The translations under genes and the position numbers were made by a program. DNA of 11,906 nt, from positions 1 through 11,906 of the forward strand of contig NZ_JAZGLW010000017.1 of assembly GCF_036409155.1 (NCBI RefSeq), given 5' to 3'. The notes beneath the pieces were generated by a model that was given only the letters and a program-made list of their open reading frames with translations, was not told the DNA's origin and did not search any database. This DNA is from Mycobacterium sp. 050128 (lineage in GTDB: Bacteria > Actinomycetota > Actinomycetes > Mycobacteriales > Mycobacteriaceae). Positions 1 through 11,906 of the stretch are shown in pieces (position 1 is the first letter of the stretch; each line of letters begins with the position of its first letter).

Positions 1-95
1 CATCACTGACCGGTGGCGGGTTGCCGACGGCCCGCTACATTCGGCCGGGATGCGCTGGAGCACCTCGAGCAGGCTGTCACCCGAAGCGCCTGGAG

Positions 96-5083: not shown

Positions 5084-5503
5084 TCAGCGACGAGAGATGC
5101 AGAGGCGGGTCAGGATAGCTTGACCCGATTGATGGACGACAACATCAACGGGGCGGGGAGGGCCTCGCGTTGTCGACCGGACCGGCCCGGCCAGCGAAGC
5201 AACCATGGCCACAACCGTGACGATGAGGTCAAGCGCAACCAAATCGGGTATTCGGCATGCCGGCATTAGAGGAGTACCGGCCTTGAGTCCCACCGAACAG
5301 CAATCGACACCCGCGCTCGGCCTGTGCGGCGATTCAGCAACCATCGTTTTGCCAGCAGCGGTCAACACGGACCCGCCGTGAAGCGCGGGGTGTCCCGAAT
5401 GGGGAAGGTGGCAACCAGCAGTAATACCGAGCAACCAAACAGCGACCGCCGCGCTGGTTACGTATCGCAACCAGCGTTTTGGATGACGTTCCCGGGGGCG
5501 CAT
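5084..5503 (-). CDS. lpqS: LpqS-like copper-associated lipoprotein
   Basis: This 139-aa predicted lipoprotein has a basic n-region (MRPRERHPKRW), a hydrophobic core, and a lipobox ending ITAGC with Cys31 as the lipidated residue. The mature N-terminus is histidine-rich (CHLPHSGHPALHGG), followed by a Cys pair (VDCCSVG), PAC, a hydrophobic stretch LDLIVTVVAMVASLAG, and the ending SGQAILTRLCISRR. From memory, M. tuberculosis LpqS (a RicR copper-regulon member, about 130 aa) shares the post-lipobox histidines and a closely similar ending (GQDLLTRFCLARR). I choose ATG 5501-5503 because GAAGG lies 5 nt before it. GTG 5513-5515 is an alternative. The frame also remains open upstream to ATG 5732-5734, which would add 77 residues and destroy the lipoprotein signal. 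A TATACCCC half-box sits 19-35 nt upstream. Likely cell-surface copper handling; the exact role in the family is unknown. Confidence 0.7.
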   Translation of the reverse strand: MRPRERHPKRWLRYVTSAAVAVWLLGITAGCHLPHSGHPALHGGSVLTAAGKTMVAESPHRPSAGVDCCSVGLKAGTPLMPACRIPDLVALDLIVTVVAMVASLAGPVRSTTRGPPRPVDVVVHQSGQAILTRLCISRR

Positions 5504-5521
5504 AGCGACCTTCACGCTAGC

Positions 5522-5538
5522 ATTTCCGGGGGGGTATA
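5522..5538 (-). promoter_or_regulatory. degenerate CsoR/RicR-type half-box upstream of the lpqS-like gene
   Basis: Read on the minus strand this is TATACCCCCCCGGAAAT. The left arm TACCC matches the boxes at 7284, 9982 and 10366, but the right arm is GAAAT in place of GGGTA, so only half the palindrome is conserved. Its position 19-35 nt before the ATG matches the spacing of the intact box before the Met-rich gene. Either the operator has decayed or the site is a coincidence of a C run. Confidence 0.35.
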
Positions 5539-7164: not shown

Positions 7165-7283
7165 CGTGGTCGACGTGGAGTTTCGGGACCTTGCTCTCAA
7201 TGGTGAACGGGGCCCGTACTACTTCGGGTTAGGCTTTTCGGACGGAGCGGCAGCCCGCTGGGTGTTTTAGGGCCGTTGGTCCC

Positions 7284-7300
7284 TACCCCGGCAGGGTATA
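7284..7300 (+). promoter_or_regulatory. CsoR/RicR-type copper box overlapping a -10 element
   Basis: TACCCCGGCAGGGTATA is an exact TACCC-N5-GGGTA palindrome extended by TA. The right arm provides a TATATG -10 hexamer (7297-7302), predicting a transcript start near 7309 and a leader of only about 12 nt to the ATG at 7321. Repressor binding here would directly occlude RNA polymerase. This is the layout known for CsoR-family operators, which are released by Cu(I). Confidence 0.75.
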
Positions 7301-7320
7301 TGTGTGGCAGCGTCTAACGC

Positions 7321-7686
7321 ATGACGCAAACTCCAGAAGCTAGGGAATCGATAAACGTGACTGGCCAGCCGAATTATGATGCGCGATCTGATCGGCCTAG
7401 TCGGCTGGGTCAGGCCGCTGCGTGGGTGGGCATCGTTGCCGGTGTCGTGTTCATAGTGGCGGTGATCTTATTCTCGGGGTTCTTCTTGGGCTTATCCTCA
7501 GGCGGCCCGTACAGCTGGCATCGGGGTTCCAACGTCGGCCGTGACGTTAGCTGTCCGATGATGGGATCTGGAGGCATGATGGGACCTGGCGGCGGCATGA
7601 TGGGACCCGGTGGAATGGGTCCGGGCGGACCGACGGGTCCTCAGCAAACCCCGAGCACGACGGCACCTACCATGCCGCGGCCCTAA
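7321..7686 (+). CDS. Met/Gly-rich single-pass membrane protein, probable copper-responsive
   Basis: This 121-aa protein has three parts. Residues 1-31 are polar and probably cytoplasmic. Residues 32-57 are one strong transmembrane helix (AAAWVGIVAGVVFIVAVILF and following). The C-terminal part probably lies outside the membrane and contains His67, Cys78 and a repeat of methionine pairs, MMGSGGMMGPGGGMMGPGGM, at 80-99, then a Pro/Thr tail. Clustered methionines outside the membrane are typical Cu(I) ligands in copper chaperones and resistance proteins. I do not recognise a named family. The ATG lies 21 nt after an exact copper-type box; the ribosome binding site is weak, and the short predicted leader suggests near-leaderless translation. 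The gene is intact although both flanks are decayed. Copper binding is inference from composition and promoter. Confidence 0.75.
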   Translation: MTQTPEARESINVTGQPNYDARSDRPSRLGQAAAWVGIVAGVVFIVAVILFSGFFLGLSSGGPYSWHRGSNVGRDVSCPMMGSGGMMGPGGGMMGPGGMGPGGPTGPQQTPSTTAPTMPRP

Positions 7687-8099
7687 CGCTGAGCAAGAAT
7701 AAACGGGCTCGGAGCAGAAGCCACCCGGATGCGGCGTCGCGCCACTGCCTCACAAGCGCTCGCTAGTTCCTTGACATCTCACCGCTGGCACGTGGCGGAT
7801 GGCACGGTTCAAAACTGGGACTGGGACATTCGTTTGCGCCGCGGGCACTCCGCACAGTTGGGCAATGGTGGCGGGTCAGCGTCGGACGGATTAAGGAGTG
7901 GATCGCGTGTTGTGTCCCTGCGGTCGGGTCGCTATTGGTGTCGATGTCGTTGTGTCGCTTGATAAAAACGCCGCCACCGACTCCACCCGCTACTGCCACC
8001 GTGGCGACACCGCCTACCAGTGCGTCCGGGTTTTGATTCGAGAGCGTACCGATCGCTCCAATCCGCATGGGCGACTTTCTGCCCCCACGTCCTACCACT

Positions 8100-8114
8100 T
8101 ACTCTTACGGGGTA
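8100..8114. promoter_or_regulatory. one-mismatch copper-type palindrome
   Basis: TACTCTTACGGGGTA differs from TACCC-N5-GGGTA at one arm position. It lies 2 nt before a possible GTG start on the minus strand (8096-8098). It lacks the GGGTATA extension of the three exact boxes, so it is either a decayed operator or a chance match. Confidence 0.3.
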
Positions 8115-8460
8115 ATTCATTCCAGGGGCTCTACGCTCGGTGGTGTGGTGACTAGAGGCGCGGGTGCACGAGTGGTGCTCGTCACGGTGGCCTTGCGACC
8201 AGGACCTGATCAAATGGGCGTGGAGCGACGAGCCGCTATTTCCTGACGGCAGCGCACTAAGCGTGAACGTGTCACTGATCCTGCCGGACTGCGATACCTA
8301 CCGCGTCGACGTTCAACATTGCTGATTGTGTCGGGTTGTGTTCACCCGCCGCGACCATTGGCGCGGTGGCTCCGTTCACCGCAGCTGTGCTTACCGACCC
8401 CAGCAGCGCCGCGGCGATGTCTGCGCAGCGACGGCAACGCCCGCACGAGTTGTGCAGATT

Positions 8461-8484
8461 GCCTAGTGCCTAGTGTCTAGTGCC
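8461..8484. repeat. short tandem repeat, 7-bp unit
   Basis: GCCTAGT-GCCTAGT-GTCTAGT-GCC: three 7-bp units and a partial fourth, the third with one change. A 7-bp unit shifts the frame and adds TAG stops, so if this arose inside a gene it would have broken it. Confidence 0.7.
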
Positions 8485-8708
8485 GCGGCGAATGTGACGC
8501 CCGCAGCGCGGGCGCACCGCAACGCCAGCCCGACGTCATCGTTCATCGTCTGGGATGAGCTGACTTATCACCTCATGATTTTCGCCGGGTGAGAGCATTG
8601 CCTCGGTGCCACCGAGCTGCCGGTGACTCTCAGCTCCAATGCGAGCATTAGTCTTGCCACGTCGTCGAGGCAGGTCGAATTCGCGGAGGCGTCCACCAAG
8701 GGGACCCG

Positions 8709-9451
8709 TCAACGGGATCTCTTTCGAAGTGCTCCTGCCAATGATCGGCTAGACCAGCGTTGGCTGCGTGACTGCTTCACAAGGACCCGACGGTTGCCAT
8801 GGAGATGCGTGTAACCGGCGGTTAGCGAACAAATGATGGTGGCGACCGCCAGCATCTGGGACCCATTGGCAACCAGGCTAATACCTCCGCCGACCGAAGC
8901 GCCAACGACTAAACTTAGGTACAGCAGAAAGTATCCCAGCCACGCAGACGCGGAGCCGCCGTTGATGTGACGCTCGATACCCTGGCCCATCTTGACCAGC
9001 GTGCCGGTCACGTAGCTCAACGGGGTTGAGACCTCGCCGTCCTTCACAAAGAAGTGTTGAGAGCACCAACTCCGAACGCAACAAAAAAGGTCGGCGTAAG
9101 TGAGAGCTCGCCTGTCGCCGACCATCCGTGTGTGGCAACGCAGACCACAGTGGCAGCGGCCAGTGACAAGGCGGTGAGTACCGTCGGGCCATGGGCGTGC
9201 TCCACCCAAAAGTGGCGCCGGCATAACGATGCAACAACCACGCCAACGACGAACGCCGCCAACAGCAGTGACGCTGTCAGAGCCAGCCAGGGCTGATGGC
9301 GGAAGTACCCCAACGCCGCACGTTCGGTGTTGCCGGTCATGAACGTCACAAAGTATCCGGCGGAATGGGTAAATGCCGCGGCCCCAATCAACCCGGCCAA
9401 CGCGGCCAGGACCCATGACAATCGCGTTTCGCTATCGAACATTTCGCGCAT
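8709..9451 (-). pseudogene. DUF1275 (YoaK-type) membrane protein with one frameshift
   Basis: The first part, from ATG 9449-9451, reads MREMFDSETRLSWVLAALAG, then AAAFTHSAGYFVTFMTGNTE, the diagnostic DUF1275 N-terminal motif, through several membrane helices to FGVGALNTS. At 9052-9053 the frame changes. The second part, FFVKDGEVSTPLSYVTGTLV then KMGQGIERH, matches the family's continuation (ALNTxFVxDGEVxxPLTYVTGTLV). Adding one T in the coding strand gives ALNTFFVKDGE, so the lesion is a single-base loss. The second fragment runs to a stop at 8709; its last ~30 residues are basic and not family-like, so the natural end may also be altered. Intact members are six-helix membrane proteins of about 220-230 aa and unknown transport role. 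A TAGAAT element 7 nt before the ATG suggests leaderless transcription. It could be intact if the base loss is a sequencing error. Confidence 0.8.
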
Positions 9452-9458
9452 ACGGCTA

Positions 9459-9464
9459 ATTCTA
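9459..9464 (-). promoter_or_regulatory. -10 element for leaderless start of the DUF1275 gene
   Basis: TAGAAT on the minus strand fits the mycobacterial TANNNT -10 consensus and ends 7 nt before ATG 9449-9451. That places the transcript start at the A of the start codon. No Shine-Dalgarno sequence is present, which agrees with leaderless translation, common in mycobacteria. Confidence 0.5.
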
Positions 9465-9981
9465 CAAAGCAGTCGGCTCCTGGCGGTGCGGGCGAGTAGT
9501 CCGCGGCTGGTTGCAACGCCATATTGGCGCCAGCCACCGGCCCGTCGCGAGTGTCGGCGGACAGGGGCGTCCTCAGCTGTGGCGCGGTTGGATGTCGGCC
9601 ACGAGGAAACCGCGAGCGACATCCTTGTAGGCGAGTGCACATCTATGAAATTTGCTGCGCTAAAAGCTGTTTCGTGCTCGAAATCGTGTTGTTGTCTGCG
9701 CTGAAGGTGACATCCGCTTGCGCAGCGGTCCGCGAACTCGGCCGCGGGTCGGCGGAAGAGATTGAGCTGGAACGCATCTCACGTAGCTGAACATCGAAGT
9801 GCAGCAGTGTTCTGCGCTCACACTCGTTGCAGTGGGCATCGATTGACCAACGGCCGCGCCACCGTCCAACCGACAGTGTGCGCAGGGCGACTGTACCCCT
9901 GCAATCCCATGGGTGCCCGGAGGCCTCGCCGGTCAGCTGGTGTGACCCGCACTGGCTTTAACGCCAGCCGCGCTTATTTAT
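9465..9981. other. gap without a recognisable gene
   Basis: Open frames are short and overlapping on both strands, with no family resemblance. A small inverted repeat, CTGGC-tttaac-GCCAG (9952-9967), lies just ahead of the copper-type box at 9982; its 5-bp stem is too short to call a terminator. The region may hold decayed sequence. Confidence 0.5.
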
Positions 9982-9998
9982 TACCCCGGTAGGGTATA
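9982..9998 (+). promoter_or_regulatory. CsoR/RicR-type copper box overlapping a -10 element
   Basis: TACCCCGGTAGGGTATA is an exact TACCC-N5-GGGTA palindrome. The right arm continues as TATAAA, a good -10 hexamer (9995-10000), predicting a transcript start near 10007 on the plus strand. The next in-line start is ATG 10023, preceded by GGGGGA. Confidence 0.7.
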
Positions 9999-10022
9999 AA
10001 GTCGTGTCCGCGGGGGACAGTC

Positions 10023-10169
10023 ATGGCGGTGAGCGCCGATTGCCAGCGGCAAGTCCGGTCCCCATTTCGACACGCCGGCCGTGGACCTGGTACGCCTCAA
10101 TTGTCACAGCGGTGTGTCAGTCATTGGATTGTTCCTCTGGTGTTCAACGTAATTAATGTGCCTGCGTGA
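10023..10169 (+). CDS. possible 48-aa protein behind a copper-type box
   Basis: ATG 10023-10025 follows GGGGGACAGTC (GGGGGA with 5 nt spacing) and lies 25 nt after the copper-type box, so the promoter and ribosome binding arrangement is good. The 48-residue product begins MAVSADCQRQVRSPFRH and ends IVPLVFNVINVPA. It has two cysteines (residues 7 and 31) and three histidines or so, not enough to resemble the MymT metallothionein, and no other family is recognised. It overlaps the end of a minus-strand frame that has more protein-like codon use (10104-10364). It may be a real copper-induced small protein, or the truncated remains of the gene the box once controlled. Confidence 0.3.
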   Translation: MAVSADCQRQVRSPFRHAGRGPGTPQLSQRCVSHWIVPLVFNVINVPA

Positions 10170-10364
10170 TCGCCATCGGAGGCGTCTCGTCTTAGCCGAT
10201 ACGCGTGGGCGAAACTCGGAAATCACCGTCATCGCGACGTCGGCCACCATCGCGCCGAGCAGCGGCCAAAACTCACCGTACAGGGGCCAACCGCCCAGAC
10301 TCTGGCGCGGCGCCTGCCCATCGCGTGGGTTCTGTCGGGCTACATCCGGAGAGGACTTAGGTCC
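10104..10364 (-). pseudogene. 5'-truncated reading frame of unknown family between two boxes
   Basis: An 87-codon open frame with no plausible start at its 5' end; it is bounded there by a TAG that falls inside the copper-type box at 10366. The translation looks like genuine protein: RDGQAPRQSLGGWPLYGEFW, then PLLGAMVADVAMTVISEFRP, then a basic tail containing RRLRWRSRRHINYVEH. Codons in the middle are strongly G/C-ending (for example the run encoding LLGAMVADVAM). The middle could form one membrane helix. I do not recognise the family. It is most likely the 3' part of a gene cut off when the adjacent promoter arrived, but a chance antisense frame is possible. Confidence 0.3.
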
Positions 10365-10365
10365 C

Positions 10366-10382
10366 TACCCCCGCAGGGTATA
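10366..10382 (+). promoter_or_regulatory. CsoR/RicR-type copper box overlapping a -10 element
   Basis: TACCCCCGCAGGGTATA is an exact TACCC-N5-GGGTA palindrome; the right arm continues as TATAAC, a -10 hexamer (10379-10384), predicting a transcript start near 10391. The leader of about 46-50 nt reaches the small secreted protein at 10437/10440 with a good ribosome binding site, and the metallopeptidase gene follows. Confidence 0.75.
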
Positions 10383-10436
10383 ACAGGTTAAGTTTGACGG
10401 TGATGAGGGCGACAGCCCTTGCATAGAAGGGAGAAC

Positions 10437-10712
10437 ATGATGAAGTCCCACAGCAAAACCGCGATCACACTGGCCGGCGGAGCAACCATTCTGGCCTTGG
10501 CGGTTGGATTCGGCGCAGGTGAATTGTCGAACAACACCACCACACCGATCGCAGACCCTGCCTCCAGCCTGACGCCGGCGCCCCCAGCGGATCCTTCTGC
10601 GCCGGCTACCAATGTCATTGTCCCCGATCCAAGTAACGGCGGGTGTATTCCGGGGTTGAATTGCGGCCCTATTAACCCGCCAAGGCCCACTCCCGCGAAA
10701 CCGCAGCCGTGA
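10437..10712 (+). CDS. small secreted or membrane-anchored Pro-rich protein behind a copper-type box
   Basis: This 91-aa protein (90 aa from the second ATG at 10440, which has the better 6-nt spacing from GGGAG) begins MMKSHSKTAITLAGGATILA, a basic n-region and a hydrophobic core, so it is a signal peptide or membrane anchor. The exported part is Pro/Ala/Thr-rich and low-complexity, with a conserved-looking segment NVIVPDPSNGGCIPGLNCGP containing Cys-x5-Cys, then a proline tail. No enzyme motif is present and I do not recognise a named family. The upstream GTG at 10419 is disfavoured because it precedes the ribosome binding site. The exact copper-type box 55 nt upstream predicts copper induction. 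It is followed by the LpqM-like gene on the same strand with no visible terminator, so the two are probably co-transcribed. Confidence 0.75.
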   Translation: MMKSHSKTAITLAGGATILALAVGFGAGELSNNTTTPIADPASSLTPAPPADPSAPATNVIVPDPSNGGCIPGLNCGPINPPRPTPAKPQP

Positions 10713-10788: not shown

Positions 10789-11906
10789 ATGGGCTACGCG
10801 CGCCATGATTGTCCGGTTGGGGTGAAGGTGGCATTCGCCTGCGCTAGCACGGTATTGCTGGTAGCAGGATGCTCGACGGTCGTCGACGGGCGTGGGTTGT
10901 CGATGTTTGACAACCCATTCAGGGTGGGGGGACTGCTCGCGATTAACGGTCCGAGCGGGATTCGTTCCAACGCACCCGGTCCCACCGGCACGGTGGTCAA
11001 CACCGACAACGGGAATATCGATAAGTTGTCGTTGCTATCGGTCAACGAGCTCGAGGACTACTGGCAGGCAACTTACGGCGAATCACTGAGCGGCACTTTC
11101 GTCCGGGTTGGCACGCTAGTCTCCTACGACTCCACCGATCCGACGAGTCCGATGGTGTGCCGCAACAAGACCTACCAAGTCCTCAACGCCTTTTTCACCT
11201 CAGGGTGCAACTTGATCGCCTGGGATCGGAGGGGGTTCATGGCGGTTGTGCGGCAGTACTTTGGCGACATGTCTGTCACTGCTGTGTTAGCGCACGAGTA
11301 CGGGCACGCCCTGCAGCAGATGGCGAAACTGGTGACGAGGAAAGACCCCACCCTCGTGCGCGAGCAGCAAGCCGATTGTTTCGCAGGTGTCTATCTGTTT
11401 TGGGTAGCTCAAGGTAAGTCGCCACGCTTCACGCTAAGTGCCGCTGACGGGCTCGACCACGTGCTGGCCGGGATCATCACCACGCGTGACCCCGTGATGG
11501 ACTCCGATGCCGAAATGGATGACGAACATGGGTCGGCGTTGGATCGGATCAGTGCCTTTCAGATAGGTTTCCTCGGCGGCCCCTCGGCGTGCGCGGGCAT
11601 TACTGTGAAGGAAATCGAGCAACGCCGCGGCAATCTGCCGACGATGTTGCGGGCCAAGCCCGGCGAAGCCCCGGAGACCGGTGAGGTTTCGATCAACGAA
11701 GTGACGTTGTCGGCGCTGTTGGAGCTGATGGGAAAGATCTTTTCGCCGAAGAATCCGCCAACGTTGTCCTACAGGGCGGCCAATTGTCCTGGTGCGCAAG
11801 CCGGCCCGCCGGCGTCTTACTGTCCGGCCACCAACACCATTGTGGTCGACCTACCAGCCCTGGTGGCGATGGGGAGACCTGCTGACATGACAGAGCATGC
11901 CCTGCC
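10789..11906 (+). CDS. LpqM-like lipoprotein, neutral zinc metallopeptidase (3' end outside window)
   Basis: The partial protein (372 codons visible) begins with a lipoprotein signal ending STVLLVAGC (lipobox VAGC, Cys28 with this start), then a domain reading DNPFRVGGLLAINGPSG and NGNIDKLSLLSVNELEDYWQ. The zinc site HEYGHALQQ is at 169-177 (HExxH), followed by REQQADCFAGVY from about 191. The ExxxD-CFAG element is shared with YpfJ-type neutral zinc peptidases and probably supplies the third ligand. This architecture matches mycobacterial LpqM, a surface metallopeptidase reported to be needed in the donor for conjugal DNA transfer in M. smegmatis. The start is uncertain: ATG 10744, ATG 10771 and GTG 10822 are in frame; 10789 gives the most usual signal length. 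The active-site residues are intact. It probably belongs to the copper-box transcript starting near 10391. Confidence 0.85.
   Translation, partial: MGYARHDCPVGVKVAFACASTVLLVAGCSTVVDGRGLSMFDNPFRVGGLLAINGPSGIRSNAPGPTGTVVNTDNGNIDKLSLLSVNELEDYWQATYGESLSGTFVRVGTLVSYDSTDPTSPMVCRNKTYQVLNAFFTSGCNLIAWDRRGFMAVVRQYFGDMSVTAVLAHEYGHALQQMAKLVTRKDPTLVREQQADCFAGVYLFWVAQGKSPRFTLSAADGLDHVLAGIITTRDPVMDSDAEMDDEHGSALDRISAFQIGFLGGPSACAGITVKEIEQRRGNLPTMLRAKPGEAPETGEVSINEVTLSALLELMGKIFSPKNPPTLSYRAANCPGAQAGPPASYCPATNTIVVDLPALVAMGRPADMTEHAL

Follow-up and report, generated by a model that had tools for sequence, protein, structure and literature searches.

The copper-type boxes and the genes behind them

The DNA analysed here (the window) is a stretch of 11,906 nucleotides that makes up the complete contig NZ_JAZGLW010000017.1 (C17) of Mycobacterium sp. 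050128. The elements in question are three copies of the copper-type box TACCC-N5-GGGTA, referred to by their first positions as the 7284, 9982 and 10366 boxes, and a second palindrome, of the DosR (DevR) type, which is joined to two of them; all coordinates are collected in Table 1. The original prediction for this stretch had singled out the three boxes, their common continuation as GGGTATA and their likeness to CsoR/RicR operators, and on these points it was right. There is no fourth exact copy in the window, and none of 200 dinucleotide shuffles of the window contained any match. GGGTATA is found on the + strand at all three boxes alike; since the box is itself a palindrome, it is from these flanks that the shared orientation is judged. 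By their form (a TAC-N9-GTA dyad, G/C tracts and an N5 spacer) the three boxes are CsoR/RicR-type operators, of the type-2 class known for Streptomyces CsoR (ATATACCCCTNAGGGGTATAT; PMC3902906; this and the other papers are cited from the portions of their text that were available). What the prediction missed is the DosR-type palindrome adjoining the 7284 and 10366 boxes.

Table 1. Positions, strands and supporting observations for the features of the window.
Feature	Position	Strand	Basis
LpqS-family gene	5084..5530	-	NCBIfam 82.2 bits, cut-off 35
DosR-type palindrome GGGCCGTTGGTCCC, abutting copper box	7270..7283	+	differs from GGGAC-N4-GTCCC at 1 base, from the GGGCC form at none; register shared across the genus
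RicR/CsoR type-2 operator TACCCCGGCAGGGTA	7284..7298	.	exact motif match
Putative -10 (TATATG or TATGTG) overlapping right arm of 7284 box	7297..7304	+	predicted from sequence
121-aa protein, one hydrophobic stretch, Met/Gly-rich tail (CPMM, MMGPGG repeats)	7321..7686	+	hydropathy, homologue search
RicR-type operator TACCCCGGTAGGGTA, without DosR-type box	9982..9996	.	exact motif match
DosR-type palindrome AGGACTTAGGTCCC, abutting copper box	10352..10365	+	one mismatch (A for first G)
RicR/CsoR type-2 operator TACCCCCGCAGGGTA	10366..10380	.	exact motif match
Putative -10 (TATAAC) overlapping right arm of 10366 box	10379..10384	+	predicted from sequence
91-aa small protein, N-terminal hydrophobic stretch, Pro-rich tail (..CIPGLNCGPI..)	10437..10712	+	hydropathy, paralogue comparison
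Neutral-zinc-metallopeptidase-like gene start, runs off contig	10789..11906	+	NF050010, 30.9 bits, far under cut-off 250

The whole genome (6.73 Mb, 52 contigs) holds 14 places with this box, seven of them on small contigs (two on C12, three on C17, two on C19). Three of the other seven precede copper genes: one lies between ricR and ilvD (C1:1156235), one before a mymT-like gene (C1:1158783) and one before a heavy-metal-ATPase-like gene. The RicR beside the first of these is named by NCBIfam, while ilvD, mymT-like and heavy-metal-ATPase-like are what we take the other genes to be from the look of their sequences. Near the remaining four (C1:216340, C1:675099, C1:1979530 and C3:343066) the list of open reading frames (ORFs) shows no obvious copper gene. 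The condition that the original prediction set for its own refutation, frequent occurrence of the motif before unrelated genes, is answered only in part by these seven places.

The ORF at 7321 begins 22 nt past the 7284 box, and a search with its product gave 646 homologues with E values of 0.001 or lower. The product of the 10437 gene, behind the 10366 box, is probably exported. It has three paralogues in the genome, two on C12 and one on C19, all behind fused boxes; the four family members are 39-56% identical (BLASTP, low-complexity filter off), those at C12:16590 and C19:6845 being 39-40% identical to 10437, and the 7321 protein, as a control in the same BLASTP, matched 0/8. As the prediction had it, these genes are not those of the classic RicR regulon of Mycobacterium (ricR, mymT, lpqS, socAB, mmcO and Rv2963; PMC10961391), apart from the LpqS-family gene nearby. 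The 9982 box may act as an upstream, copper-only promoter for the 10437 gene. A gene of its own was sought for this box, and only ORFs of 48-75 aa lie within 330 nt downstream, none of them convincing.

A fused site with a fixed junction

Palindromes resembling GGGAC-N4-GTCCC (up to one mismatch) occur only twice in the window, and they end exactly where the 7284 and 10366 boxes start. The outcome is a composite site, GGGMC-N4-GTCCC followed without a gap by TACCC-N5-GGGTA, at these two positions; no such palindrome adjoins the 9982 box. Both fused sites are also present on a plasmid of M. lentiflavum, and a third one lies on C12 of the genome studied here, at 16009. With up to three mismatches the fused pattern was found at 8 places in the genome (reversed-pattern control, 1), among them C12:16590 and C19:6845, which precede the further members of the 10437 family mentioned above.

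Across the genus, GTCCC joined directly to TACCC-N5-GGGTA occurs at 58 places in 36 of 396 genomes, as compared with 2 places for the reversed pattern. All 58 were inspected together with their flanks and, once 7 duplicates had been set aside, 51 places were analysed: the left arm, which the search had not fixed, shows 0, 1 or 2 mismatches to GGGAC in 6, 39 and 6 of them respectively, and none is worse. When GTCCC was allowed to stand anywhere from 0 to 20 nt before the box (392 genus genomes), 132 places were obtained, 57 of which have a spacing of 0, against a mean of 3.75 and a maximum of 8 for the remaining 20 spacings. The junction of palindrome and copper box is fixed. In the reciprocal search of the 392 genomes, for GGGMC placed 14 bp 5' of the box, there were 55 places (reversed control, 6), and in 41 of these NNCCC abuts TACCC, 33 times as GTCCC.

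The search was also extended to all species, where it returned at least 120 stretches; the analysis covered the 80 that carry a title and left out 40, sites within 14 bp of a stretch end were dropped, and taxon groups were assigned by hand from the record titles. Among the matches listed, the left arm has at most one mismatch to GGG[AC]C in 27/27 mycobacterial, 10/18 other actinobacterial and 2/30 non-actinobacterial distinct sites, and the A+T content of the central N4 is 0.82, 0.50 and 0.45 in the same three groups. The presence of this arm in 10 of the 18 listed actinobacterial sites from outside Mycobacterium suggests that the fused operator may predate the genus.

Ordinary RicR-type boxes offer a comparison for the position of the palindrome. 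In 102 of 297 genomes such boxes have a TTGAC within 12 bp on their 5' side, at a distance of 3, 5 or 7 bp in 43, 39 and 20 of 141 places. The stretch 3-7 bp upstream, often TTGAC at ordinary boxes, is at the fused sites occupied by the palindrome. Distances of 4, 6 and 8 bp are rarer (17, 6 and 3 of 141), an odd two-base phasing.

The majority of the fused sites in the genus precede relatives of the 7321 gene; the others stand before genes for 10437-like small proteins, DUF732, carbonic-anhydrase/YHS and DUF4189 proteins, and short membrane-type proteins that have no Pfam family at cut-off. The fused operator thus stands before about six unrelated gene families. Relatives of the 7321 protein gave 107 matches, spread over 74 of the 118 genomes searched; from 30 genomes we took the top match by protein score alone and read its promoter. 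Both boxes are present in 14 of the 30, and in 2 the copper box adjoins a weaker palindrome; the palindrome is kept and the copper box lost in 3 by the script rule (L256, L263, L269) and in 5 by eye, when L261 and L264 are included, the combined score of L269 being no better than shuffles (0.26). The chromosomal 7321 paralogue of the same genome, C1:3314619, is also of the palindrome-only type, with its site at C1:3314529.

Plasmid setting and candidate regulators

The window is 97.7% identical to positions 11396-23284 of NZ_CP092424.2, a 225-kb plasmid of M. lentiflavum ATCC 51985, and C12 and C19 match further stretches of this plasmid, located between its 8- and 60-kb positions. All five exact boxes of NZ_CP092424.2 lie within 18.6-35.1 kb, among arsenic, copper and cation genes. 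By these matches the window is a contig from a heavy-metal plasmid; a further case of copper resistance carried on a plasmid, that of M. scrofulaceum, is mentioned in PMC11877719.

Four CsoR-family genes are present in the genome, on C1, C12 and C19, and none of the four lies in the window, as the original prediction had stated. The chromosomal RicR (L089) scores 182.0 bits with the NCBIfam model (cut-off 175); a RicR-like protein encoded at C12:14882-15124 (L090), which is 69% identical to it, scores 174.2 bits and thus falls just below the cut-off. A CsoR-like gene is found at C19:4343-4579, and the fourth, more distant member is on C1. When the four proteins are aligned, two copper-site cysteines are seen in 4/4, and a histidine in the RicR, C12 and C19 proteins only; these residues are presumably the copper ligands. 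Since the contigs with the RicR-like and CsoR-like genes correspond to the plasmid that the window also matches, the regulator is probably not remote, and here the prediction, which had it act in trans, is incomplete.

As for the second palindrome, the genome encodes a protein (L095) that matches DevR (3c3w) with E 7e-113 and is identical to it at the end of the DNA-binding domain (AEKTVKN to AVFA); by this comparison L095 is the DosR orthologue. Boxes similar to the palindrome are found before the dosR gene of the genome and before its ORFs resembling universal stress proteins. If the putative -10 is the hexamer after GGGTA, the centre of the palindrome would lie about 34 bp upstream of the transcription start. 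In the literature the DevR site proximal to the start is described as overlapping the -35 (PMC3029386), and in one studied promoter the site is 34 bp upstream of the start (PMC5360333); the consensus of OsdR, AGGGCCGATCGGCCCT, is described as agreeing with the one in M. tuberculosis (PMC5069765). The palindromes next to the 7284 and 10366 boxes are of the GGG[AC]C-N4-G[TG]CCC type, and their arms, spacer and putative -35 position make DosR the likely protein to bind them.

Relation to known systems

The fused operator is a new variant assembled from known regulatory parts. With the RicR regulon it shares the kind of box, which is also found before the ricR and the mymT-like gene of the same genome, and the presence of both RicR and a RicR-like gene; it differs in the genes that follow, in having a DosR-type palindrome across the putative -35 of two boxes, and in its location on a plasmid. 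The dyad and the N5 between the G tracts are as in the type-2 operator of Streptomyces CsoR, whose AT-rich left flank is replaced at the fused boxes by GTCCC, one half of the second palindrome. From the DosR/DevR promoters and those of Streptomyces OsdR, as far as the accessible text describes them, come the GGG[AC]C-N4-G[TG]CCC core, the predicted -35 position and a universal stress protein in the output; unlike in DosR/DevR promoters, a copper operator adjoins the palindrome without a gap. Links between copper and hypoxia have been reported: deletion of csoR induces 44 of 48 DosR genes (PMC4801387), and M. bovis has a hypoxia-specific copper response via TbD1 (PMC9048740). As these two papers are excerpted, the links are physiological and no shared promoter is described, in contrast to the fused operator. 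No joint operator of DosR with RicR, CsoR or copper is described in the literature searched, which included the available portions of PMC4801387, PMC9048740, PMC8131098, PMC10034137, PMC3902906 and PMC10961391, with most subscription papers outside the search.

A two-input promoter and its alternatives

These results are best explained, with a probability that we put at roughly two in three, by a fused two-input promoter in which a DosR-type palindrome and a RicR/CsoR operator act with AND logic in the service of copper buffering in the envelope. The palindrome GGG[A/C]C-N4-GTCCC would cover the -35, and TACCC-N5-GGGTA the spacer and the -10. At low copper, apo-RicR (chromosomal, plasmid-borne or both) would block the promoter; at high Cu(I) RicR would be released, yet the promoter would stay weak for want of a TTGAC-like -35; under hypoxia or nitric oxide (NO), phosphorylated DosR would bind and recruit RNA polymerase, so that expression would ensue only with both signals. 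The output would be a Met-rich membrane protein and a family of small, probably exported proteins, with a gene for a universal stress protein behind one of the family's members; together they might buffer copper in the envelope when copper stress coincides with NO/hypoxia stress, for instance inside a phagosome or in an anoxic niche. For the genes behind the 7284 and 10366 boxes, then, the copper box is likely one half of the input. The suggestion of an extended or separate copper regulon in the original prediction is partly supported, and has to be amended for two of the three boxes, each being half of an operator of fused DosR-RicR type.

Several observations weigh against this interpretation. 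The exact core is limited to 36 of the 396 genus genomes; the 57 places with spacing 0 comprise 28 different 20-mers and are mostly orthologues of one gene, and thus non-independent; both boxes are missing from 9 of the 30 promoters read for the 7321 relatives. TTGAC, being found in 102 of the 297 genomes only, is common and not general at ordinary boxes. Among the 8 places with the fused pattern in the genome, C12:11747 (ATPase) is weak and C2:567573 chance-like. The exact core GGGAC-N4-GTCCC shows no enrichment genome-wide (9 places vs 7 for the reversed control), nor does a relaxed DosR pattern, possibly too loose, around the dosR gene of the genome (6 in 60 kb vs 6 in 90 kb elsewhere), so that the DosR label rests on form and position. 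This lack of enrichment would suit a different activator of the NarL/LuxR type at the left palindrome, with the fused operator real and the second signal other than that of DosR; the genome has 15 matches to the GerE domain, 7 of these loci were translated, and L095 alone was compared with solved structures. We consider this unlikely, because in its arms, N4 spacer, putative -35 position and A/T-rich centre the palindrome resembles the DevR/OsdR sites described in the literature consulted, and because a DosR orthologue exists, with similar boxes before its gene and before the ORFs resembling universal stress proteins.

An OR-like or graded response, in which DosR and copper each raise expression independently, differs from the two-input AND promoter in its logic alone; some 7321 relatives have one box of the two, and each box may therefore act by itself. 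We hold it possible and still doubtful, as the palindrome takes the place of the frequent TTGAC and the putative -10 falls within reach of the copper box, which overlaps it, an arrangement that favours dominant repression over activation. It is quite improbable that the genes form a plain RicR regulon in which GTCCC is an extended flank of the copper operator and no second regulator takes part. Nocardia does have GTCCC-TACCC without the GGGAC arm (5/5 sites with at least two differences from GGG[AC]C, among the matches listed), whereas in the 51 mycobacterial places the left arm is conserved though unselected, and the left palindrome survives loss of the copper box in 7321 relatives and at C1:3314529. 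Finally, the promoters at 7284 and 10366 resemble each other at 87% across 30 nt, which detracts from their independence and might point to chance or to a promoter duplicated within one plasmid; given the shuffles, the unrelated genes and the 36 genomes, this is hardly credible and is already refuted as a full explanation.

Whether the AND promoter of DosR and RicR extends further is in our view evenly balanced: the fused operator could be a conserved coincidence detector in many mycobacteria, and perhaps in other Actinomycetota, that defines a separate regulon for copper AND NO/hypoxia, opened only by the two signals together, for example in an activated phagosome, and multiplied on metal-resistance plasmids beside a plasmid-borne RicR paralogue and with the unstudied Met-rich membrane protein as its core member. 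Copper, NO and low oxygen coincide in the macrophage, and two operators in fixed register would link copper regulation directly to DosR and hypoxia. The fused sites also define a set of genes to which we could assign no function, which includes the Met-rich membrane protein, the small exported-type proteins, and the carbonic-anhydrase/YHS and DUF4189 proteins.

Other features of the window and its relatives

The stretch upstream of the LpqS-family gene has no intact RicR box, just a broken CsoR-type box, ATATACCCCCCCGGA. The metallopeptidase-like gene at 10789 is possibly co-transcribed with the 10437 gene. In comparison with the plasmid, the ORF at 10023, one of the short ORFs downstream of the 9982 box, has 1 synonymous and 2 non-synonymous changes, and a coding test of the 7321 and 10437 genes on two plasmids gave 0/1 and 0/2 changes, too few to judge. 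Remnants of dosR-regulon genes, suspected by eye in a decayed stretch of the window, did not materialise: tblastn with 263 ORFs of C3, drawn from 80 kb (60 kb around dosR, L232-L234, and 500000-519999, L231), gave 0 matches at 1e-4. The window contains no Rfam family at gathering scores, and it has no match in the phage collection.

Positions 11695-11906 of the window are a repeat with two copies on the plasmid (NZ_CP092424.2 10753-10964 and 23073-23284), in which window positions 1-95 are also involved. With this repeat at the right end, and with the ends of C12 and C19 matching the same neighbourhoods, the contigs seem to be broken at plasmid repeats. The universal stress protein encoded at C12:17037-17954, behind the 10437-type gene with the fused box at C12:16590, shares 51% identity with two ORFs in the neighbourhood of dosR on the chromosome. 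In two other genomes of the genus several fused sites stand on one contig, some on opposite strands: five on G228:C2 (L062-L065; 305,730 bases) and three on G359:C1 (L075, L076; 325,152 bases), and the two contigs may represent additional metal plasmids or islands.

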